Below are positions 20,449 through 36,068 of a stretch of DNA of 64,000 nucleotides, in pieces. The notes beneath the pieces are model-generated. The model had not been told where the DNA came from and searched no databases. It was given only the letters and a program-made list of their open reading frames with translations. The position numbers and the translations under genes were made by a program. Source of the stretch: Enteractinococcus fodinae (GTDB lineage: Bacteria > Actinomycetota > Actinomycetes > Actinomycetales > Micrococcaceae); NCBI RefSeq assembly GCF_031458395.1, contig NZ_JAVDYJ010000001.1, forward strand, positions 2,604,001 to 2,668,000. The letters run 5' to 3'. How positions within the stretch are numbered: position 1 is the stretch's first letter; each line of letters begins with the position of its first letter.

Positions 20449-21186
20449 TTAGAGCAGCTGATTTATCCCGGTGACCACCGACAGCACCGCGCCGGTCATG
20501 GCCAAGATCACGACCACGCCAAAGACCACCCGATCATTGACCTTGCCCAGGGCGCGTTGACCGGTCCACATGCCAATGGCAATACCGATCGCGGCCAACA
20601 ACCACATCCACCAGGTCAACTCGGGCAGCGTTGAGCCCATGAACCAGTGACGTCCGGCAAGCGTGGCCGAGGCGATCATCACCCACATCGGTTGCAGACT
20701 GGCAGCAAACGAGGCCACCGGCCAGCGCGAAACCACACCGAAGATCGTCACGGCCGGGCCGCCGATACCGGCCAGCACGCTTCCGGCTCCAGCGCCCACG
20801 CCCGTGAGGATCTGCGCGGGTCGATGGGTCACCGGTTCCGCCGTGCCGCGCATCAGCAGTGCGACACTGAGCCCAATGATGACTAAAACGCCGACCAGCA
20901 AGTAGATGAGCGCCCCATCGATGCGTGCCCCGAGCCAGGCGGCCGGCACGATCGACACCATCGCGGGAATGCCGATCCATCCCACACGGGACCAATTGAT
21001 GTCGCGCCACATTCCCGGCAGCATAAACAGGGAGGCCAAGACCGCCAGGATGGAGGTCAACATGATTCCCTGGTGAGTACCCAAGGCGACGACGGCAAAC
21101 GGTGCGGTCAGCATCGCGAAGCCTAGTCCGGTGATCCGTTGCAGGGCGGTCGCGATGAAACTGAGCAGCAGAATGCCAATGAGCAC
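20449..21186 (-). CDS. TauE/SafE family (sulfite exporter-like) membrane permease
   Basis: 245 residues with eight membrane helices arranged as two halves. The motif GLGFAMLTAPFAVVALG in the first half is echoed by GVGAGAGSVLAGIGGPAVTIFG in the second, as in TauE/SafE permeases. The family moves sulfite or sulfonates and other small anions, or in some cases exports metabolites. Direction and substrate cannot be told here. Single gene with its own terminator. Confidence 0.85.
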   Translation of the reverse strand: MLIGILLLSFIATALQRITGLGFAMLTAPFAVVALGTHQGIMLTSILAVLASLFMLPGMWRDINWSRVGWIGIPAMVSIVPAAWLGARIDGALIYLLVGVLVIIGLSVALLMRGTAEPVTHRPAQILTGVGAGAGSVLAGIGGPAVTIFGVVSRWPVASFAASLQPMWVMIASATLAGRHWFMGSTLPELTWWMWLLAAIGIAIGMWTGQRALGKVNDRVVFGVVVILAMTGAVLSVVTGINQLL

Positions 21187-21273: not shown

Positions 21274-21865
21274 TCACCACAGATCTCCTGCATAGGGCCG
21301 TGCCCACAGCACCAGCGTGACCGTCACCGTCTTGAACCAGGCTTGGTGCATGGCCTCGACCTCATCACTTTCGGAAGCGCCTTCTTCGAGGAAGTTCCGA
21401 ATGGTTAAGGTGACCGGCACAATCAGGGCCAGCATGTCGCTCATCGGCACGTGCCGTGCTGGAGAAGCCACTCCGTCGGTCTGGTTCTTTTTGGTTGGGT
21501 GATGGCGCAGCCCGATCTCTTCTTGGTACGCCAACCACTGGTCATCGAATGCTCGGGTGCACACATCGATCACCCAGTGTTCAAACCGACCGCGCACCCG
21601 TTCTAAGTACTGGCCATCCGGCTCTCCATCTGGTCTGCGGAAAATTGTGACCAGATGCGGGGTTGAACCGATGAAGTCGTACCAGACATCCAGAATGTCA
21701 GCCACCCGCGGGGTGAGGATTTCACCGGCACGCCGCAGGGCCGTGGCGTCATCGGTCGTCCACATCACATCGGTGAGTAATTCGTCGAGTCGTTGGCGTC
21801 CAACTGGTGACGGGTAGGTTCGGGTCGTCGTAGGTGTAACCGTCAGGGTTTATTTCAATTGCCAT
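21274..21865 (-). pseudogene. protoglobin-domain protein, apparent +1 frameshift near the N-terminus
   Basis: The continuous frame (164 codons, GTG at 21768) carries a protoglobin (PF11563) core: ALRRAGEILTPRVADILDVWY, the proximal-His region IGLRHHPTKKNQTDGV, then MHQAWFKTVTV. The family's N-terminus (GYTYDDPNLP) is found upstream in another frame, starting at ATG 21865 behind a perfect AAGGAGG. The two frames join if one C is removed from CCC in CTACCCG (about 21812-21820): ...DDPNL-PSPVGRQRLDELL. The full span is 592 nt, one base over a multiple of three. A sequencing error, a real null allele or a shortened product are all possible. Confidence 0.75.
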
Positions 21866-21966: not shown

Positions 21967-22542
21967 CTATAGGGCTGAGGGGCCAGCGGTGGCGACGAAA
22001 CTGTCGAAGAATTTGATGACGGCCGCGCGCTCTTCGGAGGTCAGCTCGGCCACTGCCTGGAACCGCTGAGCGTGGTTGTGTCCGACTGAACGTCGTGCTG
22101 TTGCTTGTGTTTCGGCAGTGACTTCCAGGGCGGTGCTGCGACGATCCTGCGGGTGAGGCGTGCGTCGAATGTGATTGGCCTCCACGAGTCGGTCGATCAT
22201 CCGTGACACCGAGGCCGTAGTGATACCCAGATGTTTGGCAACATCGCTGGGGGTCGCGAGCGCACCGTGGCGTTGACACGCGATGATGTAGCGGACGGCG
22301 CGCATATCATTTTCACCAAGCTGCATGTATTTACGGGAAGAGTCATTGAGACGGCGCTCGACGCGACGCCACCGTCGCATCGCTTCCATGACCGCAACAA
22401 TTTCATCGACTTCTTCTTCCGTATAGTCCTGCAACGAAATGAGCTCTTGGCCAGGATCCATGACGCGTGGGTCGACCATCGACATATCGCGGGAGGTGCG
22501 CCGAGTAGACGTTTGAGGTGATTTCCTAGTATTGTTAGCCAA
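21967..22542 (-). CDS. MarR family transcriptional regulator, candidate carotenoid regulator (CrtR-like)
   Basis: 191 residues if started at TTG 22542; ATG 22485 would give 172. The winged-helix core is clear: DMRAVRYIIACQR, TPSDVAKHLGITTASVSRMIDRLVEANHIRR, then the wing DRRSTALEVTAE. A 16-bp sequence overlapping its 5' end recurs exactly in the crtE promoter region 9.7 kb away. I therefore infer that it controls both itself and carotenogenesis. In Corynebacterium a MarR protein, CrtR, does this for crtE. It is divergent from hemH, which may share the operator. Position of the motif argues for the ATG 22485 start. Confidence 0.85.
   Translation of the reverse strand: MANNTRKSPQTSTRRTSRDMSMVDPRVMDPGQELISLQDYTEEEVDEIVAVMEAMRRWRRVERRLNDSSRKYMQLGENDMRAVRYIIACQRHGALATPSDVAKHLGITTASVSRMIDRLVEANHIRRTPHPQDRRSTALEVTAETQATARRSVGHNHAQRFQAVAELTSEERAAVIKFFDSFVATAGPSAL
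22526..22541 (-). promoter_or_regulatory. shared 16-bp motif at MarR gene start
   Basis: TGGCTAACAATACTAG read on the minus strand, identical to 32256-32271 on the plus strand. Just upstream on the same strand are related partial copies: GGCTAATAGTTACC (about 22543-22556) and AACAATATAG (about 22565-22574). This suggests a multi-site operator between the MarR gene and hemH. Confidence 0.6.
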
Positions 22543-22677
22543 GGTAACTATTAGCCGTTCTAACTATATTGTTGGGTCGCTTGATGCAGCTCGGGATTTC
22601 GATTGCCTGGCATTCATAATACCGTGTGTCGCGGTGGCCCGTCTGTGCCCATCTCCGCCAGATTGCTAGAGGAAAAC

Positions 22678-23901
22678 ATGCCTGACCAGAACCCTACTGC
22701 CCAAAATGGTGCACCAGACCAAGCTGAGACCTCGACCTCGGTTCCGTTTGCCACTGAAGCCTCCGCTGACGGCCAGCCTCATGTCACCACACCGCAACGT
22801 TATGATGCCCTGTTGTTAGCTGGGTTCGGTGGACCGGAAGGCCAAGAGGATGTCTTACCCTTCCTACGGAATGTCACCGCTGGTCGTGGGATTCCGGATG
22901 AACGTCTAGAAGAGGTGGCCACCCACTACCGGCATTTCGGTGGCGTGAGTCCAATCAACGCCCAGACCCAGCAACTACGCGAAGCCATTGAAAAAGAACT
23001 GCAAGATCGCGGCATGGATCTGCCGGTGTACTGGGGCAATCGCAACTGGACACCGTATTTGGAAGACACGGTACAAGAAGCTGCCGCGGCCGGTCACACC
23101 CGCCTACTCGCTCTTGCCACCAGTGCCTACAGTTCGTATTCGAGTTGCCGCCAGTATCGCGAGGATTTCGCTCGGGCACTCTTGAACACCGGCCTAGCCG
23201 GCACCGTGATGATTGATAAAGTCCGCCAATACTTCGACCATCCGGGGTTCGTCACGCCATTCATCGAAGGGGTCGACAAGGCGTTGCGCCAGTTCGAGGC
23301 CGAACAACTGGCACCCGAAGAAATCCGCGTACTGTTTGCAACCCACTCATTGCCTAGCGCAGATGGTGAGCGCTCGGGCCCACCAGAACTGGCCTTGGGC
23401 GAGGGCGGAGCTTATGCGGCCCAACACAAAGCAGTCGGTGAAGTCATTATGGAACAATTGCGTTTCGAACTGCCGTCTCGGGCTGGAACCCAGTGGGAGC
23501 TGGTCTATCAGTCACGTTCTGGACCAGCATCGCAGCCGTGGTTGGAACCCGACGTGTGTGATCGCATCGCGGAACTCCCCGAAGAAGGTATTAAAGCCGT
23601 GGTGATCGTGCCGCTGGGTTTCCTCAGTGATCATATGGAAGTGCTCTGGGACCTCGACGAAGAAGCCATCGAAGCAGCAGAAGAGGCCGGCTTGCGCGCG
23701 GTGCGGACCGCAACCCCCGGGGTACATCCAGAATTCGTCAAAGGCCTGGTCGATTTGGTGCAAGAGCGCATGGATGCCGTACCGGTCACCGATCGTGAGC
23801 ACCTGACCACCCTTGGACCTTGGTATGACGTCTGCCGGCCGGGCTGCTGCGAGAATGCGCGTCGTGGGTTCAGCCCTGCGGCGGCCGGACTGGTGCCGTA
23901 A
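22678..23901 (+). CDS. hemH: ferrochelatase (coproporphyrin III ferrochelatase type)
   Basis: 407 residues from ATG 22678 after GAGGAAA; the TTG 75 nt upstream is less likely. It shows the chelatase fold: LLAGFGGPEGQEDVLPFLRNV, YRHFGGVSPINAQTQ, VYWGNRNWTP, ATSAYSSYSSCRQY, the metal-site histidine in ATHSLP, and GFLSDHMEVLWDLDEEA. In actinobacteria this enzyme puts iron into coproporphyrin III before HemQ completes heme. A non-homologous 45-residue acidic N-terminal extension precedes the domain. It sits 2 nt before a pyrimidine-dimer glycosylase-like gene and is divergent from MarR. Confidence 0.92.
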   Translation: MPDQNPTAQNGAPDQAETSTSVPFATEASADGQPHVTTPQRYDALLLAGFGGPEGQEDVLPFLRNVTAGRGIPDERLEEVATHYRHFGGVSPINAQTQQLREAIEKELQDRGMDLPVYWGNRNWTPYLEDTVQEAAAAGHTRLLALATSAYSSYSSCRQYREDFARALLNTGLAGTVMIDKVRQYFDHPGFVTPFIEGVDKALRQFEAEQLAPEEIRVLFATHSLPSADGERSGPPELALGEGGAYAAQHKAVGEVIMEQLRFELPSRAGTQWELVYQSRSGPASQPWLEPDVCDRIAELPEEGIKAVVIVPLGFLSDHMEVLWDLDEEAIEAAEEAGLRAVRTATPGVHPEFVKGLVDLVQERMDAVPVTDREHLTTLGPWYDVCRPGCCENARRGFSPAAAGLVP

Positions 23902-23903
23902 GG

Positions 23904-24368
23904 ATGCGGTTGTGGTCGTTGCATCCGTCAACGTTGGATCGGCAGGGTCTGGTGGCATGTTGGCGTGAGGCCCTGCTGGCCCAAGCCGTCCTGTTAGGAC
24001 GGACCCGCGGCTACACCGCCCATCCGCAATTAGACCGGTTCAAAACCCACGCCCACCCCGAGGCGGCGATTGGCACCTATTTGGCCGGAATCCAGGAAGA
24101 AGCCACATCGCGCGGCTATCGCTTCGACGCCACGCGGATTGTTCACGCACCAGATTCTGACCGCGCGGCAGGTGGGCTTGAGCCGATTCCGGTGACGTTC
24201 GGGCAGCTGGGTTTTGAGCTGTCGCATTTACGAGCCAAGCTGTTTCAGCGCTCGCCGGAGTTTTTGGCCGAGCATGCGGCCGTGTTGGATGCCACCGATG
24301 AGTTCATTCCGGTGCATCCGCTGTTTTGTGCGGTGCCTGGCACCATCGAAGCCTGGGAACGCACCTAG
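23904..24368 (+). CDS. pyrimidine dimer DNA glycosylase/endonuclease V-like protein
   Basis: 154 residues beginning MRLWSLHPSTLDRQGLVACW, the N-terminal signature of the PF03013 Pyr_excise family, with HPQLDRFKTHAHPEAAIGTYL and FIPVHPLF later. The founding member, T4 endonuclease V, excises UV-induced pyrimidine dimers. For the bacterial MRLW/HP-start subgroup the activity is inferred. It begins 2 nt after the hemH stop, so the two are co-transcribed, and it overlaps the convergent P450 gene by 4 nt. A UV-repair gene beside photoprotective carotenoid genes is suggestive only. Confidence 0.75.
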   Translation: MRLWSLHPSTLDRQGLVACWREALLAQAVLLGRTRGYTAHPQLDRFKTHAHPEAAIGTYLAGIQEEATSRGYRFDATRIVHAPDSDRAAGGLEPIPVTFGQLGFELSHLRAKLFQRSPEFLAEHAAVLDATDEFIPVHPLFCAVPGTIEAWERT

Positions 24369-25588
24369 CGCACATCCAGAGTCAGACCGCGCACCTTATA
24401 GCCTTCAATCAGGTCGTCCCAGCTGATGGTCGGTTCGGTGCGCTTGGCGACTTCCAGGGACAACAACCGGTGTAGCAGTGCGTCGGTTTCTCGTAATGCC
24501 AGGGGCTGGCCGGGGCACCCGTGGGCGCCGAATCCGAAACTGAGCCCGACGTCCTGGACCCCTTTTGCGCGATCTCGACCCGGTCGCAGCTGTAATGGAT
24601 CGTCGGCGAATGCATCGGGATCGGCATTGGTCTGGCGAATGTCCAGATCCACGAGTTCTCCGGGCGACAATTCGTAGCTCTCGTCATCGTCGGTGACGGT
24701 GATGTTGTCGGTGACGCGACGGTACAGGTGGCCCACGGGTGGTTCCAGCCGGATAATTTCGGCCAGGATGCCAAGCCGTTCGTCTTCCTCGGCGGCCACG
24801 TAGCGTTGCCGCAGTTCGTCGTTGTCCAGTAGGTGCCAGCAGGCCATGGTGATGAATTCGCGGGTGGTGACCATACCGGCGGTGCCGTAGGTGACGCACT
24901 CGACCAGGATGTCTGCCAGGTTGGAGTCCTGCTCGATCAGATGACTGATGACGTCCTGACGAGGGTTTTTGGTCCTCGAACGCACCGCGGGCAGCACATC
25001 GAACACAAACAGCCCGACCAGTGGACCCAGTCCGTTGGCGGCGGCTGCCATCCACTGACGGTTGGTGCGACCCAGGCGTGGTTTGCTGCGGTCCAACGGG
25101 GGTTGGCGGAAGAATTTTTCTAACCGGCGAGCCAACGCTGGCACTTTGGCGTGGGTCAATCCCACGATTGAGGCGGTGACTTCCACCGTGTAGTACAGCG
25201 CCACTTTGTCGATAGTAATGGTCCCGGTGCGTTTTGCCTCGTCGAGGATTTTGTCGACCACGGTCTCCATGAGGGTCCCGTAGCGGGTGGCCACGATCCT
25301 GGGCGCGAAGAACCGGGCGACTTTGCGCCGTTGTTCGTCGTGTTGGGGGCCGTCGGAGATTAGAATCGGGTGGCTGCGGAAGGCGTCGCGGGGAATGTAT
25401 TCGGCCGTAAACCCGGCTTGGATCGTCTCGTGACGGGCCAGTAACACGTCCTTGGCGGCGGCCAGCGAGCCGATACGCCAGATTGATTCCCGTTTGGTCA
25501 CCCGCCCCGTGGGGGTGTCCCCGGGTTTGAGCGCCTTGCGCTGACTGGTCGCGCTATGGAATGGGCAGCCCTGGTGCTGTTGGGTCAT
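24365..25588 (-). CDS. cytochrome P450, likely carotenoid ring hydroxylase
   Basis: 407 residues. The heme loop FGFGAHGCPG (Cys358) and the ExxR pair (EIIRLEPP, then YRRV) are present. The I-helix reads TYGTAGMVTTREF, with the acid of the usual acid-Thr pair replaced, as in some specialised P450s. It is the last gene of the carotenoid operon, 6 nt after crtU. In Brevibacterium a P450 beside crtU is linked to making 3,3'-dihydroxyisorenieratene from isorenieratene. By position I infer the same here. Another small-molecule oxidation is possible. AAGGAG lies 11 nt before the ATG. Confidence 0.85.
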   Translation of the reverse strand: MTQQHQGCPFHSATSQRKALKPGDTPTGRVTKRESIWRIGSLAAAKDVLLARHETIQAGFTAEYIPRDAFRSHPILISDGPQHDEQRRKVARFFAPRIVATRYGTLMETVVDKILDEAKRTGTITIDKVALYYTVEVTASIVGLTHAKVPALARRLEKFFRQPPLDRSKPRLGRTNRQWMAAAANGLGPLVGLFVFDVLPAVRSRTKNPRQDVISHLIEQDSNLADILVECVTYGTAGMVTTREFITMACWHLLDNDELRQRYVAAEEDERLGILAEIIRLEPPVGHLYRRVTDNITVTDDDESYELSPGELVDLDIRQTNADPDAFADDPLQLRPGRDRAKGVQDVGLSFGFGAHGCPGQPLALRETDALLHRLLSLEVAKRTEPTISWDDLIEGYKVRGLTLDVR

Positions 25589-25594
25589 CGATGA

Positions 25595-27169
25595 TTATGC
25601 TCCTTCGGGCAGCGCGAATCGACGGATGAAACGACCGGTGGCACTGCGGCGCAACAGTCCGGTGCGCGGTGGCGAATCCAAGTCATGGCCGGTCACGTTC
25701 CAGTCGGCCAGCAGCGCGTTGGCGGCTTGGAAGCCGGTGGTTGCCGCGCGTTCCATGAGCGCGACCGGGAGGTCACAGCGGATCCAATCACCGGCTAACA
25801 CGAGGTTCGGAATGTCGGTGATGACTTCGGGGTGGTCGTGCCACGGTGAGATGTCGGCCAGCCCGCAGTCGTCGTCGAGCAGGTACTCTTCGGCCACGAT
25901 CGTCATCGTCCGGGTTTCAGGGAAGACGAAGTACATATCCCCCAGCAGCGCGTCGCGGATGGTTTTGCCTTGTGCTGAGTTCGGGTCCGCCGGACCGTCG
26001 ACCGCATACGCGTGGAGTTCGACCACCGATCCCCCGTGGGTGCGGGTCCACTGTGCGGCGGTGGCTTCGAAGCGTTCAAGCACCGAAATATTGTCTAACA
26101 CAGTGTAGCCGCTGGTGCCTAAGAAAGCCGGACGATCTGGGTTGACGGTATCGGAGAGCCACAGGCGCAGGATGGCAAAGGGCGGCGCATTGCGACGGCG
26201 TGACGCCCGGTCTTGAAGGGTCGTCACCGGTTCACTGTCGGGTTCGAGACCCGCGATGAGTTTGCGACTGTTGCGCGGGTCCGCCGCTAACACGACCGCG
26301 TCGAATGCGGCGATCCCCTGCGGGCTGGTGACCTGCCATCCGTCGTCGTGTTGGCTGAGGGTATCTACGGGAGACTCGAGGTTGATGGTGGTACCCATCG
26401 CGCGCAGGTAGTCACCCAGGGGGTCCCACAGGCTGGTGTTGAAGTCGTCGACGGGCACATCAAACAGCAGCCCTTCGGCAGAGCCGGTGAAGTAGGTGTG
26501 GAACATCGTCACGAGCTCGCGGGCCGCAAAGTCATCGGGGTGAGCAAAAAATGAGCGTGCGAAGACCTCAAGTGCCAGGTGGCGGGCGCCGTCGGGGAAT
26601 TGCAGCCGGTCGAGGAAGTCCGCGGCGGACTCCCCATCGTAGCGGTGCAGTGTCTCAGGGAATTCTAGGTCGATGAGTTCAAAGGCGCTGGGCAGGTCGA
26701 CGTGGGCCAAGCCGGTCAGCGGGAAGGTGGGGCTCTGGAGTACAAAAGCCGCCAGGTTGAATGGCGGGGTGCGCGGGATGGATTCGAAAGAGTCGGTCAG
26801 TCCGGCTGCGGTTTGTAGCGGGTAGTCGGCTATCGGCGTCAACTGGTCCATCGCCGGGTCGGTGCGGCGCAGCAGGGCTCGCAGGTTGTAGTACTGGCGG
26901 AAGAACGCGTGGAATCCGCGGCTCATATTCCGGTCATCGCCCACCGGCCAGGACCGGACCCGCCCGCCCAGCTGCGGTGCTGCTTCGAAGATGGTGACGT
27001 CCGCGCCGCGTTCGGTCAGGCCTGTGGCCGCGGCGAGTCCGGCAATGCCCCCGCCAATGACGGCCACGGTGCGAGGGTCCTGCACGGTGTCGTGGCCACG
27101 GTGGGCCAGAATGCGTTCAGCGTGCGGATCGCTCGGGGCGTTAGGGACAGCATGCGGTGAACGAATCAT
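25595..27169 (-). CDS. crtU: carotene desaturase/methyltransferase CrtU (isorenieratene synthase type)
   Basis: 524 residues of the FAD-dependent carotenoid desaturase superfamily. The N-terminal dinucleotide fold is VAVIGGGIAGLAAATGL...VTIFEAAPQLGGRVRSW, preceded by a 30-residue extension. The C-terminal FAD site is NLVLAGDWIRCDLPVALMERAATTGFQAAN. Unlike CrtI it lacks the YFAGATTVPG ending and resembles CrtU, which aromatises beta-ionone rings with methyl migration to give isorenieratene. Context supports this: lycopene cyclase subunits upstream and a P450 downstream. The start overlaps the methyltransferase gene (ATGA), and AAGGAG is 7 nt upstream. Confidence 0.82.
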   Translation of the reverse strand: MIRSPHAVPNAPSDPHAERILAHRGHDTVQDPRTVAVIGGGIAGLAAATGLTERGADVTIFEAAPQLGGRVRSWPVGDDRNMSRGFHAFFRQYYNLRALLRRTDPAMDQLTPIADYPLQTAAGLTDSFESIPRTPPFNLAAFVLQSPTFPLTGLAHVDLPSAFELIDLEFPETLHRYDGESAADFLDRLQFPDGARHLALEVFARSFFAHPDDFAARELVTMFHTYFTGSAEGLLFDVPVDDFNTSLWDPLGDYLRAMGTTINLESPVDTLSQHDDGWQVTSPQGIAAFDAVVLAADPRNSRKLIAGLEPDSEPVTTLQDRASRRRNAPPFAILRLWLSDTVNPDRPAFLGTSGYTVLDNISVLERFEATAAQWTRTHGGSVVELHAYAVDGPADPNSAQGKTIRDALLGDMYFVFPETRTMTIVAEEYLLDDDCGLADISPWHDHPEVITDIPNLVLAGDWIRCDLPVALMERAATTGFQAANALLADWNVTGHDLDSPPRTGLLRRSATGRFIRRFALPEGA

Positions 27170-27888
27170 TCACGGGCTCCTTGATTACGAGCGGTATAGG
27201 TGTAGAGAACTTTGCGATGCCAACCCTTGGCGGTCGTGACCGCGGCGTCGCGGAAGCCGGCTTGGGTGAGCCGCTTGAGCACATTGGCGGTTGAGTCGTT
27301 ATCCATCACCGAGCGCCACAGGTAGGTAAAGAGCGAGGTCTTCGCGCCGGTCAGTGCCGCCAGCGGGATGACGATCAGGAAACACACCAGCGTCCATTTC
27401 GCCCGCGCCACATTCGAGTCGGCCACCGAGTAATCATGCAGGACCAGCGGCGAATCCGGTCCCATAAACTCCCGAATCTTTGCCAGGACCTCAGTGCGGT
27501 CTTCTGCCGGGAGGTTGCGTAACAGATAGGCGGCAAATACGCCGTCGGGCGTTTGTGTTAATTCTGGAGCGGGATTGGTCACCAGGTTCTCGACACGATC
27601 CAACACGAATTCCGTGCCCGCGGGCCAGTCTTTGGCGCGTGCGGCTGCCAGCATCCCGGCCGAGGCGTCCACGCCGATGACTTTGGCGTGCGGCATCGTC
27701 TTCAGCAGGGCTTTGGTGCTCAGTCCGGTGCCGCAGCCCAGGTCCCAGATCACCGGGCGGCTGGTGGCGTCGAGCATGGCGGCCAGCTGGCGAGCGGCCC
27801 GGCGTAGTTCGCGCTGATACCCCGGGTTCAGTCGGGTCAGCAGGTCATACCGGCGTGCTGAGGAGGTGAAGGCGTCACTGAGCAGCAT
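27166..27888 (-). CDS. class I SAM-dependent methyltransferase in carotenoid operon (CrtT-like)
   Basis: 240 residues from ATG 27888 (AGGAGG 9 nt upstream). A UbiE-type Rossmann methyltransferase: motif I WDLGCGTGLSTKAL, then VIGVDASAGMLAAAR, APELTQTPDGVFAAYLLRNLP. In Streptomyces carotenoid clusters a methyltransferase (crtT) of unclear role sits next to crtU and crtY, and this gene holds the equivalent position. It overlaps crtYd by 14 nt and crtU by 4 nt, so it is part of the operon. Its acceptor is unknown; O-methylation of a hydroxylated aromatic ring is one possibility. Confidence 0.78.
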   Translation of the reverse strand: MLLSDAFTSSARRYDLLTRLNPGYQRELRRAARQLAAMLDATSRPVIWDLGCGTGLSTKALLKTMPHAKVIGVDASAGMLAAARAKDWPAGTEFVLDRVENLVTNPAPELTQTPDGVFAAYLLRNLPAEDRTEVLAKIREFMGPDSPLVLHDYSVADSNVARAKWTLVCFLIVIPLAALTGAKTSLFTYLWRSVMDNDSTANVLKRLTQAGFRDAAVTTAKGWHRKVLYTYTARNQGARE

Positions 27889-28222
27889 GCGCGGGCGCCT
27901 CCTGAGCGAGTCGGGCACGCCGATTCTTCAGCGCCTGCCAGACCATAATCACGGTGGTCAGCATCGCAAACCCGAACCCGAAGTCTTCGATCGGGATGTC
28001 CCAGGGGAACCGGATGCCTGAATTCATGTCCGGGTTGTAGATGACAATGGGGTTCGACAGTTTCGTCAGGTACCCGTCAACCGGGATTTGGAAGCCCAGG
28101 CAGATGCCCAGGGCAATCCAGTAGGCGGGTTTGCGGAAGATCCCGCTGCGGACGATAAACAGTTCAACCAACACCACGACGATCATGCCGATGATGGTCA
28201 GGATGGTGTATTCAGGCAGCAT
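27875..28222 (-). CDS. crtYd: lycopene beta-cyclase subunit CrtYd
   Basis: 115 residues from ATG 28222 (GGGAG upstream), overlapping crtYc by 11 nt. Three membrane helices with the lycopene cyclase domain pattern: MLPEYTILTIIGMIVVVLVE, then a conserved NPDMNSGIRFPWDIPIEDFGF block whose IPIEDFGF element mirrors the PLEELVFF of the partner subunit. Heterodimeric cyclases of this type close the beta-rings of lycopene in Brevibacterium, Mycobacterium and relatives. In C50 producers the homologues (YeYf) make other rings, but no crtEb prenyltransferase gene is present here. Confidence 0.88.
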   Translation of the reverse strand: MLPEYTILTIIGMIVVVLVELFIVRSGIFRKPAYWIALGICLGFQIPVDGYLTKLSNPIVIYNPDMNSGIRFPWDIPIEDFGFGFAMLTTVIMVWQALKNRRARLAQEAPAHAAQ

Positions 28223-28565
28223 CGGTGGCGCTCCCTTCCCGGTTTTTCCGTTTGGCAAAGAACCGCAGCACGGTGGACACGCCCTCGTAGCTGAGCAGCG
28301 CGCACAGCGAGATGACGACGAAGAACACGAGTTCTTCTAACGGCATCGGGCCGATGTGGATGCCGGTGATGAATTCGGGGTTGTAGGTCCAGTGGTTACG
28401 CACGATGCCCAACAGATCCCACAGCCCAAACACGACCACGACCACACCGACCGATGGGAGCATGAGCAGGGGTCGTCGGTACACTCTGGCGCGCAGGAAA
28501 AATTCTAACGGGAGGGTGATGGCCACGCAGGCGGCCATCAGTATCAGGTACTCGTATTGAGCCAA
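28212..28565 (-). CDS. crtYc: lycopene beta-cyclase subunit CrtYc
   Basis: 117 residues, three membrane helices, with the family motif GIHIGPMPLEELVFFVVISLC near the C-terminus and DLLGIVRNHWTYNPEFITG before it. This is the upstream partner of the heterodimeric cyclase. The charged PLEE motif is needed for activity in characterised members (established knowledge). It starts 12 nt after crtI and overlaps crtYd, so the two subunits should be made in similar amounts. Confidence 0.88.
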   Translation of the reverse strand: MAQYEYLILMAACVAITLPLEFFLRARVYRRPLLMLPSVGVVVVVFGLWDLLGIVRNHWTYNPEFITGIHIGPMPLEELVFFVVISLCALLSYEGVSTVLRFFAKRKNREGSATDAA

Positions 28566-28577
28566 GATCTTCCTTCC

Positions 28578-30212
28578 TTATCGGTTGTGAGCGATGCGGG
28601 CAGCTGTGGGCTGCAGGGGCGTGGGTATGGGGCCGGTGGTCGTATCGTTGCGCAGGCGTTTGATGACGTTTTCGGCCGAGATCAGACACATCGGGAGTCC
28701 CACACCGGGCACGGTGGTCGCTCCGGCGAAGTACAGTCCGTCAACGTGCTTGGAGGTATTGGCGCCGCGGAAAAACGCTGACTGCGCCAGGGTGTGGGCC
28801 AGGCCCAGCGCGTTGCCTTGCCAGGCGTTGAAGCGGTCTTGGAAATCCCCGGGACCAACGGTGTGGCGGGCCACGATGCGATCGGCCAGGTTCGGCACTC
28901 CGATGCGTTGACCAACCAGTTCGATGGCTTGATCAACGATGGCTGTGGTTTCGGCGTCTTCGGGGTGGTTGAGGTCGCCGACGATCCCATCGTCCATCGC
29001 CGGCACCGGGATTAACAGGAACACGTTTTCGTGACCCTGCGGGGCCACACTGGGATCAGTGGCCGAAGGTCGGGAGACGTACAGCGAGCGCGAAAACGTG
29101 CTGCGATCCGTGCTGGCCTTGGTGCGATCGTTGGGGAACACGGCGGTAAAATCTGGGTCCCAGTCTTGGCTGAAGAACAGCGAGTGGTGTGCCAGTTCTG
29201 GCAGTTCGCCTTCGATTCCCAGATAGGCCAGCACGCTGGACAGCCCCGGATTGCGGCGCTTCCAGTATTTGGGTCGCGCAGCGCGCTGGTCATCGACCAG
29301 TTGTGCTTCGGTGTGCTGCCGGTCGGCACAGGATACGACGATATCGGCCGTCTGCTGGTGTGTTCCGGTGGCATCCCGGTAGGTCACCGATGACACGTGA
29401 CGCCTCGGGTGCCCGTTGGCCTGGGCGTGGATGCGTTCCACGGTGGCCCCGGTGACAATCTGCGCCCCAGCATCGACCGCTAACCGGTGCAGCGAGTCGA
29501 CAAACGTACCGAACCCACCCATCGGGTAGGCCACCCCCTCGATCAGGGTCGTGTAGTTCATGATCCCGTAAAACGCGGGCGTGATCTTCGGTGCCGACGA
29601 CAGAAACACCGCGGCATAGGTCAGCAACTGCCGCAGCTGCACGTGGTCGAAATGGGCTGCGACGTCGGATTCGATGGATTGGGTGAGTTTGCGTGCTAGC
29701 CGGCCTAACCGTCGCAGAATCTGTGCGGTGGTCAGGCCGCGCAATTCGGTGAAGTTCGTGTAGAGGAACTGTTCAATGGCTAACCGGTAGTCGGTTTCCA
29801 TCCCGGCAAGATACTGCTGAACTTTCTGCCCGGCTCCGGGTTCGAGGCGCTCAAATAACTCCAGAAGGTTTTGAGTACCGGTGGTCACGTCCAGGGGCGG
29901 GTGGTCTTCGGTGAACATGCGGAAGGCCGGTTCGTTGAGATGTACCAGCTCCAGTTCCTCCTCGACCGTGGTGCCCATCAGCTTGTAGAAGTGTTCGAAG
30001 GCGCCGGGCATCAGCCACCAGGAGGGCCCCATGTCCCAGCGGAATCCGGCGTCTTCAATGACTCCGGCGCGTCCCCCGACCTGGTGCTGTTTTTCAAAGA
30101 CGGTGACGTCGTAGCCGTCTCGGGCTAGTAAGCCCGCGGTTGCGAGTCCAGCGACGCCCGCTCCGATGACGATGGCGGTGGGTTTCGCTGGCGTGGTGTG
30201 GGTTTGGGGCAT
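28578..30212 (-). CDS. crtI: phytoene desaturase CrtI
   Basis: 544 residues. The N-terminal FAD site VIGAGVAGLATAGLLARDGYDVTVFEKQHQVGGRAG is followed by WDMGPSWWLMPGAFEHFY. The C-terminal CrtI signature is YFAGATTVPGVGLPMCLISAENVIKRL. It converts phytoene to lycopene by stepwise dehydrogenation at the membrane. It starts 3 nt after the crtB stop. Length and motifs are complete, so the enzyme should be active. Confidence 0.94.
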   Translation of the reverse strand: MPQTHTTPAKPTAIVIGAGVAGLATAGLLARDGYDVTVFEKQHQVGGRAGVIEDAGFRWDMGPSWWLMPGAFEHFYKLMGTTVEEELELVHLNEPAFRMFTEDHPPLDVTTGTQNLLELFERLEPGAGQKVQQYLAGMETDYRLAIEQFLYTNFTELRGLTTAQILRRLGRLARKLTQSIESDVAAHFDHVQLRQLLTYAAVFLSSAPKITPAFYGIMNYTTLIEGVAYPMGGFGTFVDSLHRLAVDAGAQIVTGATVERIHAQANGHPRRHVSSVTYRDATGTHQQTADIVVSCADRQHTEAQLVDDQRAARPKYWKRRNPGLSSVLAYLGIEGELPELAHHSLFFSQDWDPDFTAVFPNDRTKASTDRSTFSRSLYVSRPSATDPSVAPQGHENVFLLIPVPAMDDGIVGDLNHPEDAETTAIVDQAIELVGQRIGVPNLADRIVARHTVGPGDFQDRFNAWQGNALGLAHTLAQSAFFRGANTSKHVDGLYFAGATTVPGVGLPMCLISAENVIKRLRNDTTTGPIPTPLQPTAARIAHNR

Positions 30213-30215
30213 GAA

Positions 30216-31094
30216 TTAGGTCTTCTTCAGCAGGTGTGTGGATACGGTTTGTGCGGCGATGGTCAATTTCCGAGTGTTGTTCACGCGCACGCGGCGTGAC
30301 AACAGTTCATCGGCCGGGCGGGCATCGAGTTCATCGGTCAGAGCACTGAAGAGCCGGTGGGCCATATCCACTCCGATGCGGGCGCGCGGATCGAGCCGCT
30401 TGATACCCGGTTTGGCTGCGTCCAGGTCAGCACGAATATCGGCGACCAATTGGCGTTTTTTGGTCTCTTCGAAGGCTGCCGGGTCGACGTCGGGAAAATA
30501 CGAGCGTCCCAGTGCGGCGTAGTCGGTTGCTAAGTCGCGCAGGAAGTTCACCTTTTGAAACGCCGCCCCGAGCCGTCGGGCAGAAGTCACGAGCATCGCG
30601 TCATCGCTGGTATTGGTGCCGGGCATGTTCCGAAACACTGCCAAACACATCAGTCCCACGACTTCTGCTGAACCGTAAATGTAGTCGTCCAGGGTTTCGT
30701 CGGTGTGTTCGTAGCGGTGCAAATCCGCGCGCATCGACCGGAAAAAGGGTCGCGTCAGCTCAGGACCAATGTCGTGTGTGCGGGCCGTGGTGACAAATGC
30801 GTGGACCACGAGGTTGGTGCTGTAACCGGTCTTTAAAGCAGCTTCGGTCTGGTCTTCTAACCGGTCGAGTTCGATCGCGATCGTCTCGGTGTCCAGGCCT
30901 GCTTCGTGGGCGACGCCGTCGACGATTTCATCGGCTAAGCGCACCAGCGCGTAGATATTGCCGATGTCGCGCCGAGCTGCTTTGCCCAGAAATCGACTCG
31001 CGAGCCCAAATGAGGTGGAGTATTCGGTGATGACTTTGCCGGAGCTGGAGATCGCGGCGGAGGTGTACCGGTGCAGCGCGGTGGGGTGTTTCAT
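30216..31094 (-). CDS. crtB: phytoene synthase CrtB
   Basis: 292 residues of the squalene/phytoene synthase family. The first aspartate motif is in YALVRLADEIVDG and the second in NFLRDLATDYAALGRSYFP, where Mg-diphosphate binding occurs. It condenses two GGPP to 15-cis-phytoene. The ATG directly abuts the crtE stop (TAAATG), so translation is coupled. Confidence 0.94.
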   Translation of the reverse strand: MKHPTALHRYTSAAISSSGKVITEYSTSFGLASRFLGKAARRDIGNIYALVRLADEIVDGVAHEAGLDTETIAIELDRLEDQTEAALKTGYSTNLVVHAFVTTARTHDIGPELTRPFFRSMRADLHRYEHTDETLDDYIYGSAEVVGLMCLAVFRNMPGTNTSDDAMLVTSARRLGAAFQKVNFLRDLATDYAALGRSYFPDVDPAAFEETKKRQLVADIRADLDAAKPGIKRLDPRARIGVDMAHRLFSALTDELDARPADELLSRRVRVNNTRKLTIAAQTVSTHLLKKT

Positions 31095-32162
31095 TTAGGT
31101 GTTCCTCTGCAGCAGGTCGTCGATGAGCTGGTCAAACGTCGTGCGGACCGCTTTACTCAGGGGTAACTGGGCAAGTTCAGCGCGCGCTTGCTGGCAACAC
31201 TCATCGGCCAGCGCTCGCGCTTTGGCTTCGATGTCATGAGCGATGAGCAGGGCACGCATCGCATCGTTGCTGACCTCCCCGTGACGCCAGGCTTCCACGG
31301 TGCCGGCTGCGGACTCAATGCTTTCGACCAGTGCGATCAGCACGGTGATTTTGCCCTCGCGCAAATCCGAGTCGTTGGGTTTGCCGGTGGTTTCAGCATC
31401 CCCAAACGTCCCCAGCACATCGTCAATAATTTGATAACAGCTACCAAGAAGGTTCGCGAACGTTGACAGGCGCGTTACAATCTCGTCGGTCGCGCCGGCC
31501 AGCAGCGCGCCGGTTATCAGCGGTGCTTCGAAAGAATAGGCCGCAGTTTTGAGGCGATGCATCTGCAGTACATCGTCGAGATCAGGAGATTCAATGTGCG
31601 CCGAGAACATGACGTCGTCGAGCTCTCCCGCAGCTGACTGTTGGATCGCGCTGTGAAAGACATCGATCATGCGCTGGCCACATGCTAGATCTTGGCAAGC
31701 GGCGTGGAGCAGCTGGAGCGCTTGAGAAATCAAGGCGTCCCCGGCCAGCAGGGCCGCCGAATGCCCCAGATGCTCGGCGGTGGCCTGTGACTTACCTTGG
31801 GCTAGTGCTGCATCGCGATAGTGGGCTGACAGGGTGGGTTGGCCGCGTCGAATGAAATCTTGGTCAATGATGTCGTCGTGGATGACCAGCGCGGTGTGCA
31901 ACAATTCAAACGCACATCCGATATCCAAAAGCCGCGTGTCCTGGTCAGTGGCGACGACCTGGTAGCCAAGGTTGACCAGCAACGGGCGAGTTCGCTTCCC
32001 CCCGGAAGTAGCTTTGATGATTTGTTGCCACAGGGCGGCCATTTGCGGCGTGGGAGCGGTGCGGGTCTGTTCGCACAAGATAGCCTCGAGACGGCGATCA
32101 AATTCCCGCTGCAACTGCTGACCGGGCTTGGTCTGGGGGATGAGCTGAACCTGGATACTCAT
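31095..32162 (-). CDS. crtE: geranylgeranyl diphosphate synthase CrtE
   Basis: 355 residues of the trans-prenyltransferase family. The first aspartate-rich motif is in VIHDDIIDQD and the second in YQIIDDVLGTFGD, with GGKRTRP near the N-terminus for IPP binding. It supplies GGPP to CrtB. First gene of the operon, with an excellent CAGGAGGAG site before ATG 32162. Its upstream region holds the 16-bp motif shared with the MarR gene, 94-109 nt before the start codon. Confidence 0.93.
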   Translation of the reverse strand: MSIQVQLIPQTKPGQQLQREFDRRLEAILCEQTRTAPTPQMAALWQQIIKATSGGKRTRPLLVNLGYQVVATDQDTRLLDIGCAFELLHTALVIHDDIIDQDFIRRGQPTLSAHYRDAALAQGKSQATAEHLGHSAALLAGDALISQALQLLHAACQDLACGQRMIDVFHSAIQQSAAGELDDVMFSAHIESPDLDDVLQMHRLKTAAYSFEAPLITGALLAGATDEIVTRLSTFANLLGSCYQIIDDVLGTFGDAETTGKPNDSDLREGKITVLIALVESIESAAGTVEAWRHGEVSNDAMRALLIAHDIEAKARALADECCQQARAELAQLPLSKAVRTTFDQLIDDLLQRNT

Positions 32163-32255
32163 TGCTCCTCCTGATCAAATAGTAGTGTCGGCAGCGAACG
32201 GAACTTTGGCCTGTTTCGTCGAACTCCGCACTCAAGGTGAGCGAAATTACTAGCC

Positions 32256-32271
32256 TGGCTAACAATACTAG
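32256..32271 (+). promoter_or_regulatory. shared 16-bp motif in crtE promoter region (candidate MarR operator)
   Basis: TGGCTAACAATACTAG, identical in reverse complement to 22526-22541 at the MarR gene. It overlaps a perfect palindrome TAGCC-T-GGCTA (32251-32261) and lies between crtE (minus) and the TspO-related gene (plus), so it could control both. Confidence 0.6.
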
Positions 32272-32313: not shown

Positions 32314-33123
32314 GTGGAACAGCGAGTGAATTCTTGGTTCATGCCGATCGTGACGGTAGTGGCTGTAGTGGCCGCTATTGTGCTGGCGTTTATCGGCAGT
32401 GGCGCCATGGGCGGTACCGAAGTCAGTGAAGCCGCAGGTGGGGCCCTATCTGCCGATGCCACACCGTTTGCGCCCGACGGCCCGGCGTTTAGTATCTGGA
32501 GCGTGATCTATGCGGGCCTGGTGCTCTATACGATCTACCAGCTGCTGCCCAAACAGCGTGCCTCGGCGCGACACGCACGGCTACGTCCCTGGGCCGCGCT
32601 GTCAGCGCTTCTGAACGCCGCCTGGCTCGGTGTGGTGCAGCTCGACAGCATTTGGGGCAGTGTGATCGTCATCGTGATACTGCTGCTGGTGTTGATTCGA
32701 ATCTTGTTCATTTTGCGCAGCGGCAAGCCGTCGACCAACACCGACCGGATCATTACCGATGGCACCTTTGGCCTGTACTTGGGATGGGTCACGGTGGCGA
32801 CCACGGCCAATACCGCCGCGTTGATTGCCCAGGTCACGGGATTAGATACGTTCACCGGATGGGAGTGGGCCGCCGTGGCCGTGATTGCGGTGGTGGCTGC
32901 CATTGGCATCAGTTTGGAGATCTTCAACCAGGGCCGGATCGCACCCGCATTGGCGATCAGCTGGGGTCTTGCCTGGATTGCGGTGGCTCGAACTAGCGGC
33001 GAATATGAGTCACTCATCCTCGTCTGGGCCGCCGGCATTGCCGCAGCACTCGTGCTAGCTACGGCGATTTGGGTGCGCATTATGGTCGAACGGAGAACCG
33101 CGAAAACCACCTGGAGACCATGA
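32314..33123 (+). CDS. TspO/MBR-related multi-helix membrane protein
   Basis: 269 residues from GTG 32314 (GGAGGAAAG upstream), with eight or so hydrophobic segments. The segment TPFAPDGPAFSIWSVIYAGLVLYTIYQLLP resembles the TspO/MBR (tryptophan-rich sensory protein) core. WAALSALLNAAWLGVVQLD also fits, but the protein is longer than the usual 160 residues. TspO proteins bind porphyrins and are linked to light and oxidative responses and to carotenoid control in Rhodobacter. It is divergent from crtE, sharing the region with the MarR-type motif. Confidence 0.65.
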   Translation: MEQRVNSWFMPIVTVVAVVAAIVLAFIGSGAMGGTEVSEAAGGALSADATPFAPDGPAFSIWSVIYAGLVLYTIYQLLPKQRASARHARLRPWAALSALLNAAWLGVVQLDSIWGSVIVIVILLLVLIRILFILRSGKPSTNTDRIITDGTFGLYLGWVTVATTANTAALIAQVTGLDTFTGWEWAAVAVIAVVAAIGISLEIFNQGRIAPALAISWGLAWIAVARTSGEYESLILVWAAGIAAALVLATAIWVRIMVERRTAKTTWRP

Positions 33124-33170: not shown

Positions 33171-34121
33171 ATGGCGCGGGACACTGGAGGTATGGATACT
33201 TCAGCTACTGCCCCAGCCATTACGTTAGACGCGGTCACCAAACGCTTCGGCCAGGTTCTCGCGGTCGATGACGTCAGTTTGGCCGTCCACCCCGGCGAAG
33301 TGCTCGCGTTACTGGGTCCCAACGGAGCTGGCAAGACCACCCTGTTAGATATGGTGTTAGGTTTCACCGAGCCCACGCAAGGCAGTACCCGCACATTTGG
33401 TAACTCTGCTAAAACTGCAGCCAGCAACGGCATGGTCGGCGCAGTGCTCCAGGATGGTGGCCTCCTTGATGACCTGACGGTCGGAGAAACCATTCGGATG
33501 ATCGCTGCCTGCCATCGCTGGCACTTGCCGATTGACGAGGTGATACTCCGCGCAGGGGTCATGAGTTTCACGACTCGGAAGGTCAAAAAGTGTTCGGGAG
33601 GGCAGCGGCAACGCCTGCGTTTTGCGCTCGCGTTACTGACTGATCCGCAACTGCTCATCTTAGATGAGCCAACCGCGGGCCTTGATGCGACGGCTCGAAA
33701 CGATTTCTGGGCCACGATGCACGCCGAAGCCAGGCGGGGTCGTACCATCGTCTTTGCCACCCACTATCTGCGCGAAGCCGACGACTACGCAGACCGAGTG
33801 GTGTTGATGGCTCAAGGACGCGTGATTGCCGACGGCAGTGTGGCTGACATGACCGCGGATATGCCGCGCCAACTGTCAGCGCAGTGGGTCTCGGATATCG
33901 ACCCGTATGTTTGGGCTGACACCGTCGGACCCGCAACCCAAGGGCTGCACTACGACGCCACGACGCAACGCATCCATCTCACCACCGCGGAGACCGATTG
34001 GGTTGCTGCCAAGTTGTTATCGGCTGGGCTAATCCGCCATCTGACGATCACCCAACCGGGGATCGAAGAAGCGTTCTTCGACCTGACCCAAGATCACCAT
34101 GCCCAGGAGACTGCGTCATGA
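33171..34121 (+). CDS. ABC transporter ATP-binding protein
   Basis: 316 residues. Walker A GPNGAGKTT, signature CSGGQRQR (a C in place of the usual L), Walker B LLILDEP and the switch histidine in FATHYLREADD. A C-terminal extension of about 90 residues is typical of drug- or bacteriocin-export ABC-2 systems. ATG 33171 has no clear ribosome site. ATG 33192 has GGAGG only one base upstream, so the start is uncertain. It overlaps the permease by 4 nt. Confidence 0.88.
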   Translation: MARDTGGMDTSATAPAITLDAVTKRFGQVLAVDDVSLAVHPGEVLALLGPNGAGKTTLLDMVLGFTEPTQGSTRTFGNSAKTAASNGMVGAVLQDGGLLDDLTVGETIRMIAACHRWHLPIDEVILRAGVMSFTTRKVKKCSGGQRQRLRFALALLTDPQLLILDEPTAGLDATARNDFWATMHAEARRGRTIVFATHYLREADDYADRVVLMAQGRVIADGSVADMTADMPRQLSAQWVSDIDPYVWADTVGPATQGLHYDATTQRIHLTTAETDWVAAKLLSAGLIRHLTITQPGIEEAFFDLTQDHHAQETAS

Positions 34122-34924
34122 CCACTTCACTCCAACGCCCCCAAAAATCCCAAGTAGAGATTCTGCTGCGGTTTGTCGGCTGGGAATTCTGGCGCAATTT
34201 CCGCATGCTAGATGCCACCTTCTTCGTCATCATCCTGCCGGCAGCGATGTATTTGATGTTCGGCGTCGCCATGGACCAAGGCGAGATGCCCGCCGGCTAC
34301 GGCAACGTTTCGGCTTATGTCATGACCTCGATGGCCGTCTACGGGGCGGTCATCTCCACCACGGCGATGGCCGGTTCGGCCGCGGTCGAGCGGACGACGG
34401 GTTGGGGCCGTCAGTTGAACATGACCGGTCTGACCGAAGCCAACTACATCCTGGGCAAAATGCTCATGGCGCTGTTGATGGCCATCAGCCCGATTGTCAT
34501 TGTCTACATCGCCGGCGCCGTCACGGGGGCGGAATTCGACTCGATCTGGCACTGGTTTGCATCGGCGGCACTGTGTCTGGTGGTTGCCATCCCGTTCTCA
34601 CTCTATGGCCTGGCGTTTGCCCTGCTGTTCCGCTCAGAAACTGCCGTCAGTGCAGCCTCCGGGTTCCTGGTGCTGTTTGCATTTTTTGGCAACCTGTTCA
34701 TCCCGCTGGGCGGCGCGCTGCTCGATATCGCCAAATTCACCCCGCTGTACGGTCCAGCCATGTTGGCCCGCTGGCCCCAAACCGAGGGGATGCTGATCCC
34801 GATGCAAGCCGGGGCCGAAGTAGAATTTGAATCCATGTGGCTACTGTTGACCAATATCGGCGGCTGGACGGTCATCTTCGGGATCATGTGCCTGATGGCC
34901 GTGCGCCGCAGAACGGCCCGCTAA
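34118..34924 (+). CDS. ABC-2 type transporter permease
   Basis: 268 residues from ATG 34118, inside the end of the ATPase gene (ATGA). Six membrane helices with the ABC-2 pattern: a cytoplasmic N-terminus (VEILLRFVGWEFWRNFRML), AVERTTGWGRQLNMTGL between helices 2 and 3, and a final helix followed by RRRTAR. Substrate unknown. The following two-component system suggests an antibiotic-stress or lipid-stress efflux module like Bacillus LiaRS or DesKR-linked transporters. Confidence 0.85.
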   Translation: MTTSLQRPQKSQVEILLRFVGWEFWRNFRMLDATFFVIILPAAMYLMFGVAMDQGEMPAGYGNVSAYVMTSMAVYGAVISTTAMAGSAAVERTTGWGRQLNMTGLTEANYILGKMLMALLMAISPIVIVYIAGAVTGAEFDSIWHWFASAALCLVVAIPFSLYGLAFALLFRSETAVSAASGFLVLFAFFGNLFIPLGGALLDIAKFTPLYGPAMLARWPQTEGMLIPMQAGAEVEFESMWLLLTNIGGWTVIFGIMCLMAVRRRTAR

Positions 34925-34928
34925 CCGT

Positions 34929-36068
34929 ATGAGCATCATCTCTAAAATCACCACGACCGGCCAGACCAGCTACCTACCCGATCCACCGACGACCACGGCT
35001 GAACGTCGGGCCATCATCTTCACCGCAGGCATCTGGTTGGTGTTCTTGGGGTGGACGATCATCGGTTTCCTCGAATCCACCGCCCCGGTGCCCGCCCAAA
35101 TCACGGGATGGGCGGCACTGGTCGCGTTCCCCGTCGTCTATCTCTTCGGGTTTCTGCGCCCCGAGCCGCTGGCCCGGGCTTCCCGCCACGTCAACACCCT
35201 GCTGTACACCCTGGCCCTGATTGCGCTGGGTCTTGTCATGGCCCAAGTCACGCCCACGGCAATCATCAACATCGTGCCGTATTTGATGGCCCAGTGGATC
35301 TTCAACCACCGGCTGGCAACCGGCATCATCGCCGTGGTCATATTATTCTTGGCCGCGGTGGCCGTGGTGGTACTGGGCAATCTTGATGACTACGCTAATT
35401 GGTTCCTCGCCTCGGTCGGGTCCCCTGCGATCATCATGGTGTTCATCCGCATCAGCATCGAGATGGGTGCCACCCAGCAAGAGCGCTCCGAGCAATTGGC
35501 GTTGGCTGCCCAGCGCGAAGAGCTGGCCTCCACCGTTCACGACGTGCTGGGGCATTCGCTGACCACCATCACCGTCAAAGTTCAACTGGCCCAACGCTTA
35601 CTCAACACGAACTTGGATGCCGCAAAAACCGAACTCGCGGACATCGAGGCGTTGGCCCGGCGCTCATTATCCGAGGTCCGCGCCACCGTCACCGACCTCC
35701 AACACCCAGACCTGACGGAACAGCTTGACAAGGCCCACCACGGACTGACCGCAGCCGGAGTGACTTTTCAGCGCCCCGAAACCCTACCTCGCCTGACGCT
35801 GGTGCAACAGCAAGTCTTTGCATGGGTCATCCGCGAAGCCGTGACCAATGTGTTGCGACACGCCAACGCTACAACGTGCACCATCAGCATGACACACCAG
35901 GAGGCCGGTGTGGTCCTGCGAATCGATGACGACGGGGACGGCGTCCATGACACGAACCCGGTGAACCATCACGGTTTGGCCGGGCTGCAACGCAGAGTCA
36001 CGGCGGCCGGCGGTAGTCTGGAATTATTCCATCTCAATCCTGGAACTCGTGTGGAGGTGCGCCTGTGA
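34929..36068 (+). CDS. sensor histidine kinase (HisKA_3/NarL-type partner)
   Basis: 379 residues. Five or six membrane helices (about 30-175) without a large extracytoplasmic loop, so it probably senses a membrane state or the transporter. Then the dimerisation/phosphoacceptor segment REELASTVHDVLGHSLTTITVK with the phosphorylated histidine, and a compact HATPase domain (REAVTNVLRHANAT, IDDDGDG, HHGLAGLQRRV). Starts 4 nt after the permease and overlaps the regulator by 4 nt. Confidence 0.9.
   Translation: MSIISKITTTGQTSYLPDPPTTTAERRAIIFTAGIWLVFLGWTIIGFLESTAPVPAQITGWAALVAFPVVYLFGFLRPEPLARASRHVNTLLYTLALIALGLVMAQVTPTAIINIVPYLMAQWIFNHRLATGIIAVVILFLAAVAVVVLGNLDDYANWFLASVGSPAIIMVFIRISIEMGATQQERSEQLALAAQREELASTVHDVLGHSLTTITVKVQLAQRLLNTNLDAAKTELADIEALARRSLSEVRATVTDLQHPDLTEQLDKAHHGLTAAGVTFQRPETLPRLTLVQQQVFAWVIREAVTNVLRHANATTCTISMTHQEAGVVLRIDDDGDGVHDTNPVNHHGLAGLQRRVTAAGGSLELFHLNPGTRVEVRL

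Follow-up and report, generated by a model that had tools for sequence, protein, structure and literature searches.

The closest described systems are the CrtR proteins. That of Corynebacterium glutamicum is a MarR-type regulator of ~195 amino acids (aa) with its winged helix-turn-helix late in the chain and a link to carotenoid genes, and it represses crtE and its own gene (PMC5401885, PMC6739363). Its published site is an essential TTAA motif within 15-19 bp, and a study in which the footprint spanned 52 bp reports that inverted repeats could not be found (PMC6739363). Five CrtR orthologues (C. callunae, A. jensenii, P. nicotinovorans, M. luteus and P. chlorophenolicus) bind their own upstream DNA, and geranylgeranyl pyrophosphate (GGPP) inhibits binding; in C. 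callunae the protein additionally binds a crtE promoter located a few genes from its own gene, and P. nicotinovorans has two paralogues, one crt-linked and one mmpL-linked (PMC7432914). We describe a MarR gene (marR) in a 64,000-nucleotide stretch of the Enteractinococcus fodinae genome, referred to as the window, together with a palindromic element that lies at the start of marR and in the divergent promoter region of crtE and a gene for a TspO-like membrane protein. We propose, with a probability of roughly 0.8 and from sequence comparison, that this MarR is a CrtR-type repressor acting through the palindrome at both places. The features concerned are:

21967-22542, minus strand: marR, crtR-like MarR repressor gene, 191 aa, TTG start, PF12802/PF01047, 55-73% to five relatives
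22533-22550, minus strand: O2, imperfect palindrome TAGTTACCTTGGCTAACA, overlapping the marR start codon
22549-22566, minus strand: O1, imperfect palindrome TAGTTAGAACGGCTAATA, 16 bp upstream of O2
31095-32162, minus strand: crtE, polyprenyl (GGPP) synthase, PF00348
32247-32265, no strand: putative operator of the crtE/TspO-like divergent promoter, TTACTAGCCTGGCTAACAA, a zero-mismatch match to TWNYTAGNNNNNCTARNWA
32314-33123, plus strand: TspO-like membrane protein gene, divergent from crtE, named from its predicted fold and without a TspO family model match

The element has the form (C/T)TAG-N5-CTA(A/G), and its inner form is often TAGCC-N-GGCTA. The crtE-side site starts ~85 bp ahead of crtE, and ~49 bp separate its other end from the GTG of the TspO-like gene. 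O1 and O2 are each one base off the generic pattern TWNYTAGNNNNNCTARNWA. The pattern TWRYTASNNNGGCTAANA with one mismatch allowed matches the three window sites and nothing else genome-wide; it was drawn from those three sites, so that only the absence of other matches is informative. The only zero-mismatch matches to TWNYTAGNNNNNCTARNWA in the genome are in two promoters, those of crtE and of an mmpL-linked MarR paralogue. In ten genomes the pattern occurs at 12 places, of which nine are at crtR, crtE or paralogue promoters and the other three in or at the end of other open reading frames (ORFs). A loose pattern (YTAGCCNGGCTAR, two mismatches) gave at least 250 matches per strand and was not used.

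The earlier note on this DNA had started from a 16-mer, TGGCTAACAATACTAG, shared by a MarR gene and the crtE promoter, and exact copies are indeed present at 22526-22541 (minus strand) and 32256-32271 (plus strand), with ~9.7 kb between them. No other window site lies within three mismatches, and shuffled windows gave a mean of 0.04 matches, none of 100 shuffles having two. No further exact copy occurs among the 2,932,870 bases of the genome, where an 861-aa ORF holds the single two-mismatch copy and nine copies have three mismatches; a backwards control pattern gave 22 matches. The claim that a chance 16-bp match is very unlikely was nevertheless too strong: the window holds seven repeated 16-mers, forming five pairs of places with the TGGCTAACAATACTAG pair included, against 6, 4, 6, 4, 3, 2, 0, 9, 0 and 1 in ten Markov shuffles. 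Exact 16-mer repeats are thus expected in 64 kb and the case rests on conservation; what makes this match informative is the location of each copy in a control region, together with the conservation of the palindrome around it. At marR the 16-mer takes in the start codon (TTG), all of codons 2-5 and some of codon 6. It consists of one palindrome arm plus flank and overlaps the palindrome at 22533-22550 only in part. The identity of the two copies is peculiar to this genome among the five compared: on the marR side the window 16-mer is matched with 1, 2 and 1 mismatches in three congeners and with more than four in G004, and on the crtE side all four congeners differ from it.

Nine genomes of the genus were searched (G000-G008), and five have marR with the crt cluster, namely those of the window, Enteractinococcus coprophilus, E. 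helveticum, Yaniella halotolerans and a Micrococcaceae metagenome-assembled genome (MAG). Both operator places are conserved in all five. At marR, 32 of the 44 columns spanning O1 and O2 are identical, compared with 3/32 just upstream and 20/65 downstream, and third codon positions are identical in three of five codons under the motif versus two of 22 after it. The crtE side has a matching conserved block in the same five genomes. The marR start codon is TTG in four genomes and GTG at the same place in Y. halotolerans, with a common downstream frame; from this shared position and frame, the operator appears to overlap the translation start. In a genome of another genus (G009) the marR-to-crtE order is kept without the TspO-like membrane protein gene, and two imperfect sites at 16-bp spacing can be seen by eye before crtE.

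Beyond the genus, the palindrome was scored in the 260 bp upstream of 119 MarR relatives, split by a tree into 42 window-type genes, 55 genes of a C. glutamicum CrtR/paralogue clade (including L219, on a long branch) and 22 outgroup genes; L223-L225 are in neither the tree nor the counts. A site was taken as significant if no more than 5% of 200 shuffles equalled it. Outside the genus, 32 of 37 window-type genes have a significant upstream site, versus 0/37 inside genes and 0/37 with a mirrored consensus, and the five genes of the genus gave five, one and none respectively. In a run with 60 shuffles, the upstream, inside-gene and mirrored counts were 36, 2 and 0 for the 42 window-type genes (genus included), 20, 1 and 0 for the 55-gene clade, and 8, 4 and 0 for the outgroup. 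Significant sites lie 75-106 bp before the matched start in 24/37 cases, and a second, mostly weaker site at 16-bp spacing is present in Nesterenkonia muleiensis, N. ebinurensis, N. sp. PF2B19 and N. alkaliphila. The motif thus extends to related genera, where the earlier note had suggested looking for it, and we regard both the motif and its link to crtE as sound. A CTAG/CTAA-type palindrome is also seen upstream of eight of the 22 more distant MarR genes (L149, L151, L155, L156, L157, L160 and L161 among them), such that this operator type may predate CrtR; the inside-gene control there is 4/22. Searching 301 genomes of the C. glutamicum family yielded no match in genus g182, and searching g182 itself gave matches in 33 of 242 genomes.

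The window MarR is a winged-helix protein whose MarR domain (PF12802, residues 83-136 of 191) is preceded by a long N-terminal stretch, and it is 38% identical over 159 residues to C. glutamicum CrtR, which we located (L215) via published primers and a binding-site oligonucleotide; the kinship criterion of the 2017 CrtR paper is at least 25% identity (PMC5401885). The mmpL-linked paralogue (L097:6782-7378; G000:C1 about 1934781-1935377) is encoded 0.7 Mb from the window MarR and divergently from an mmpL gene, with its own putative operator, a CTAG-N5-CTAG sequence (TTACTAGCTAAACTAGCAA), in its promoter. At 53% identity it is closer to C. glutamicum CrtR than is the window MarR, and the two fall in the 55-row clade (support 100/100). 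The window MarR groups with G009 and four Nesterenkonia rows (99/88), with N. alkaliphila elsewhere, and in view of the closer paralogue it is a CrtR relative in a sister group and not the nearest orthologue. Window-type genes have crtE within 1.5 kb in 20 of 42 cases, idi in 23 and either in 24, and crtE or idi beside the MarR gene is the CrtR arrangement of the literature (PMC5401885, PMC6739363). The window marR shares a cluster with the crt genes at 9.7 kb from crtE, whereas C. glutamicum crtR faces crtE directly; this distance has a precedent in C. callunae CrtR at its non-adjacent crtE promoter. Because the palindrome recurs upstream of window-type MarR genes and these are linked to crtE or idi, the window MarR is most likely a CrtR-type repressor that has been parted from crtE. 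Its earlier description as a CrtR-like repressor of crtE agrees with the kinship and with the predicted operator in the crtE/TspO-like promoter, but the nearest relative of C. glutamicum CrtR is the paralogue, and the TTAA motif of the C. glutamicum site is in none of the three window sites.

Several results weigh against this assignment. The backwards control of TWNYTAGNNNNNCTARNWA occurs at 24 places in the ten genomes versus 12 for the palindrome itself, so that the count is not enriched and only the placing speaks for it. The window genus informed the choice of consensus, and the MarR rows are related by descent and not independent. Genes without a significant site number 5/37 among the window-type genes outside the genus, 35/55 in the C. 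glutamicum/paralogue clade and 14/22 in the outgroup (where the inside-gene control is 4/22). Upstream of C. glutamicum crtR itself the palindrome is not significant, the best score of 11/17 being reached by 68 of 100 shuffles; the putative operator here is thus of another kind than the studied one, with a TAGCC-N-GGCTA-type palindrome (tandem at marR) where that one has TTAA. Lastly, a simple promoter scan gave no sigma-70-type promoter in the marR or crtE region. The studied C. glutamicum site (L215:1374-1401) does not fit the palindrome of its relatives, and other Corynebacterium loci (L196, L198, L199 and L200) retain a TAGC-type site; together these suggest that the operator may have changed within that genus.

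We envisage that a MarR dimer would bind (C/T)TAG-N5-CTA(A/G), that the two sites 16 bp apart over the marR start would confer autoregulation, and that a dimer at 32247-32265 would block both divergent promoters, keeping the crt operon and the TspO-like gene off. By analogy with the CrtR proteins studied, release would follow a rise in GGPP or in a light-derived signal. We infer the binding, repression and inducer from these comparisons, as well as occupancy by the window MarR and not the paralogue; it is likely that a distantly encoded repressor of the CrtR type controls crtE and the TspO-like gene.

Of the alternatives, that in which the mmpL-linked paralogue is the main crtE repressor, or in which both proteins share the sites, survives best, but it seems unlikely. 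The paralogue's greater identity to C. glutamicum CrtR and its well-supported place in the same clade favour it, as does its promoter being the only other exact genomic match to the generic palindrome, and the inner bases do not separate the regulators, the paralogue sites of G001 and G002 being CTAGCCAAGCTAG. However, G001, G002 and G007 have the paralogue without a close window-type marR or crtE (G002 is 88% and G007 71% complete), indicating that the window marR is present or absent together with the crt cluster, and the E. fodinae sites differ in their inner bases, with CCTGG at crtE and CTAAA at the paralogue. Much less probable is a reading of the 16-mer as part of a promoter, recognised by one sigma factor at both places, and not as an operator. 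The two copies point the same way with respect to marR and the TspO-like gene, and inspection by eye suggests that the plus-strand copy at 32256-32271 holds a -10-like hexamer, AATACT, directed toward the TspO-like gene, where the congeners have TATACT, TATGAT or TATATT, with the right arm of the palindrome running into a TAnnnT-like hexamer in all four. What is conserved across genera, however, is a symmetric palindrome, in tandem with 16-bp spacing in several loci, and not a -35/-10 pair, and no promoter-like pair was found in either region by the scan. A chance repeat, for which the number of repeated 16-mer pairs in the window being within the shuffle range could be cited, is scarcely credible when both sites are kept in five genomes of the genus and the palindrome is conserved in other genera too.

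The CrtR-type repressor so proposed lies at one end of a cluster whose remaining genes are:

22678-23901, plus strand: hemH, ferrochelatase, divergent from marR, PF00762
23904-24368, plus strand: pyrimidine-dimer DNA glycosylase, directly after hemH, PF03013
24365-25588, minus strand: cytochrome P450, PF00067
25595-27169, minus strand: crtU-like flavin adenine dinucleotide (FAD) oxidoreductase, PF01593
27166-27918, minus strand: UbiE-like methyltransferase, PF13649/PF01209
27875-28258, minus strand: crtYd-like lycopene cyclase subunit, PF18916
28212-28565, minus strand: crtYc-like lycopene cyclase subunit, PF18916
28578-30212, minus strand: crtI, phytoene desaturase, TIGR02734 above cut-off
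30216-31094, minus strand: crtB, phytoene synthase, PF00494

The carotenoid row (P450, crtU, methyltransferase, crtYd, crtYc, crtI, crtB, crtE) is convergent with hemH and the glycosylase gene; we take the 25595-27169 gene to be crtU from its position. Compared with the window, Nesterenkonia loci are 51-84% identical in hemH and MarR and 42-50% in CrtI and CrtB. A foreign origin of the crt cassette in the window genus, under a resident CrtR, was considered, but the crtU regions (14 of 43 matching genomes) did not settle the matter and we make no such claim. Protoglobin and TauE/SafE-type genes (21274-21768 and 20449-21186, minus strand) follow marR on the same strand, a row kept in E. coprophilus and E. 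helveticum and not directly in Y. halotolerans or the MAG. The TspO-like gene is followed by what are presumably, by eye, ATP-binding cassette (ABC) transporter genes and a histidine kinase/response regulator pair (33171-36676, plus strand), and this row is kept in E. coprophilus (L099).

The gene divergent from crtE had been called TspO-type; its product may have the five-helix TSPO fold but does not belong to a curated TspO sequence family. There is no TspO family match in Pfam at E up to 1 (a chance Rifin match only) or in NCBIfam at E up to 0.1, and no sequence match to a solved TSPO. The protein model (pLDDT, the predicted local distance difference test, of 80) aligns best with Rhodobacter sphaeroides TSPO (Z 13.0 over 147 residues, residues 6-176) and has further C-terminal helices; the top four structural matches are all TSPO (Z 11.8-13.0, residues 5-178), where Z near 13 can be common for helical bundles, and Foldseek gives 4uc3 with a probability of 0.95 but an E of 2.0. 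On its predicted fold, and with no family match, we call the protein TspO-like and not TspO. A TspO-like gene is also divergent from a MarR gene of 32-34% identity in three Corynebacterium loci.

Genes of heme metabolism and DNA repair recur beside these regulators. Within 1.5 kb of the MarR gene, hemH is found for 9 of the 42 window-type genes versus 1/55 in the C. glutamicum/paralogue clade and 2/22 in the outgroup, the dimer glycosylase gene for 12/42 versus 0/55 and 0/22, and a TspO-like gene for 2/42 versus 0/55 and 0/22; in flanks of up to 10 kb, hemH is present in 12 and the glycosylase gene in nine of 32 named loci. In four Nesterenkonia loci (L069-L072) hemH comes after the crt genes and on their strand, lying 62 bp beyond crtEb in N. 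muleiensis (L070). In N. alkaliphila crtR is faced directly by hemH, behind which lies an mmpL gene; no crt gene was recognised in the 14.5 kb examined, and the two palindromic sites are some 44-78 bp ahead of the assumed hemH start. Two genomes of another family (L268, L270) have a same-strand row of crtE, TspO-like gene, crtB, crtI, crtYc, crtYd, methyltransferase, crtU, P450 and hemH, which faces a distant MarR gene (31% identity). In a Corynebacterium locus (L219:1504-2945) hemH immediately follows the long-branched CrtR-like gene on the same strand, and the glycosylase gene adjoins crtR in other families (L081, L092, L137, L138, L139 and L142), in some without crtE within 1.5 kb. In the window, the putative marR operators are 111-145 bp away from the hemH start codon and further upstream than the candidate -10 of hemH; at this distance direct repression of hemH is not evident in this genome. 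The earlier suggestion of a single carotenoid, heme and TspO regulon is consistent with the recurrence of hemH and TspO-like genes beside crtR and crt rows, but control of hemH in the window is unproven.

Porphyrins are photosensitisers, and TSPO is a porphyrin binder. A photoprotection regulon that includes hemH is a good hypothesis on these gene neighbourhoods. In a wider form, which we offer tentatively and at somewhat less than even odds, CrtR-type repressors of the Micrococcales would run one light-protection regulon of carotenoids, ferrochelatase, TspO-like protein and dimer glycosylase via a TAGCC-N-GGCTA-type operator, the genes having been shuffled while the operator stayed at the crtR and crtE promoters. 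Carotenoids would quench singlet oxygen, ferrochelatase would drain photosensitising porphyrin, the glycosylase would act on ultraviolet-induced pyrimidine dimers and the TspO-like membrane protein would perhaps bind porphyrin; the genes under the conserved operator could stand in one row, in divergent pairs or 9.7 kb apart as in the window. We found no description of such a CrtR-hemH photoprotection regulon in searches of an open-access library, which lacks most subscription papers. In the text consulted of the CrtR papers, hemH, TspO-like and pyrimidine-dimer glycosylase genes, all three present in the window, are not mentioned (PMC5401885, PMC6739363, PMC7432914), and a photolyase gene is noted near some crtR homologues (PMC5401885). 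The nearest parallel is in M. kansasii, where carotenoid genes are under a MarR repressor, CrtR, and a photolyase-tspO-mmpL locus is light-induced, its control by CrtR being left open; tspO is at a separate locus there, whereas the window TspO-like gene is at the crtE operator region (PMC9861118).

The published CrtR site is the TTAA motif, and a TAGCC-N-GGCTA-type operator is not described in the portions consulted of the four CrtR papers (PMC5401885, PMC6739363, PMC7432914, PMC9861118); the window points to a clear palindrome, sometimes in tandem, across many genera. If the proposal is correct, the recurrence of hemH, TspO-like and dimer-glycosylase genes would make CrtR a switch for photoprotection and not for pigment alone, and these genes bear on the question raised in M. 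kansasii of whether CrtR controls light-induced genes other than those for pigment.

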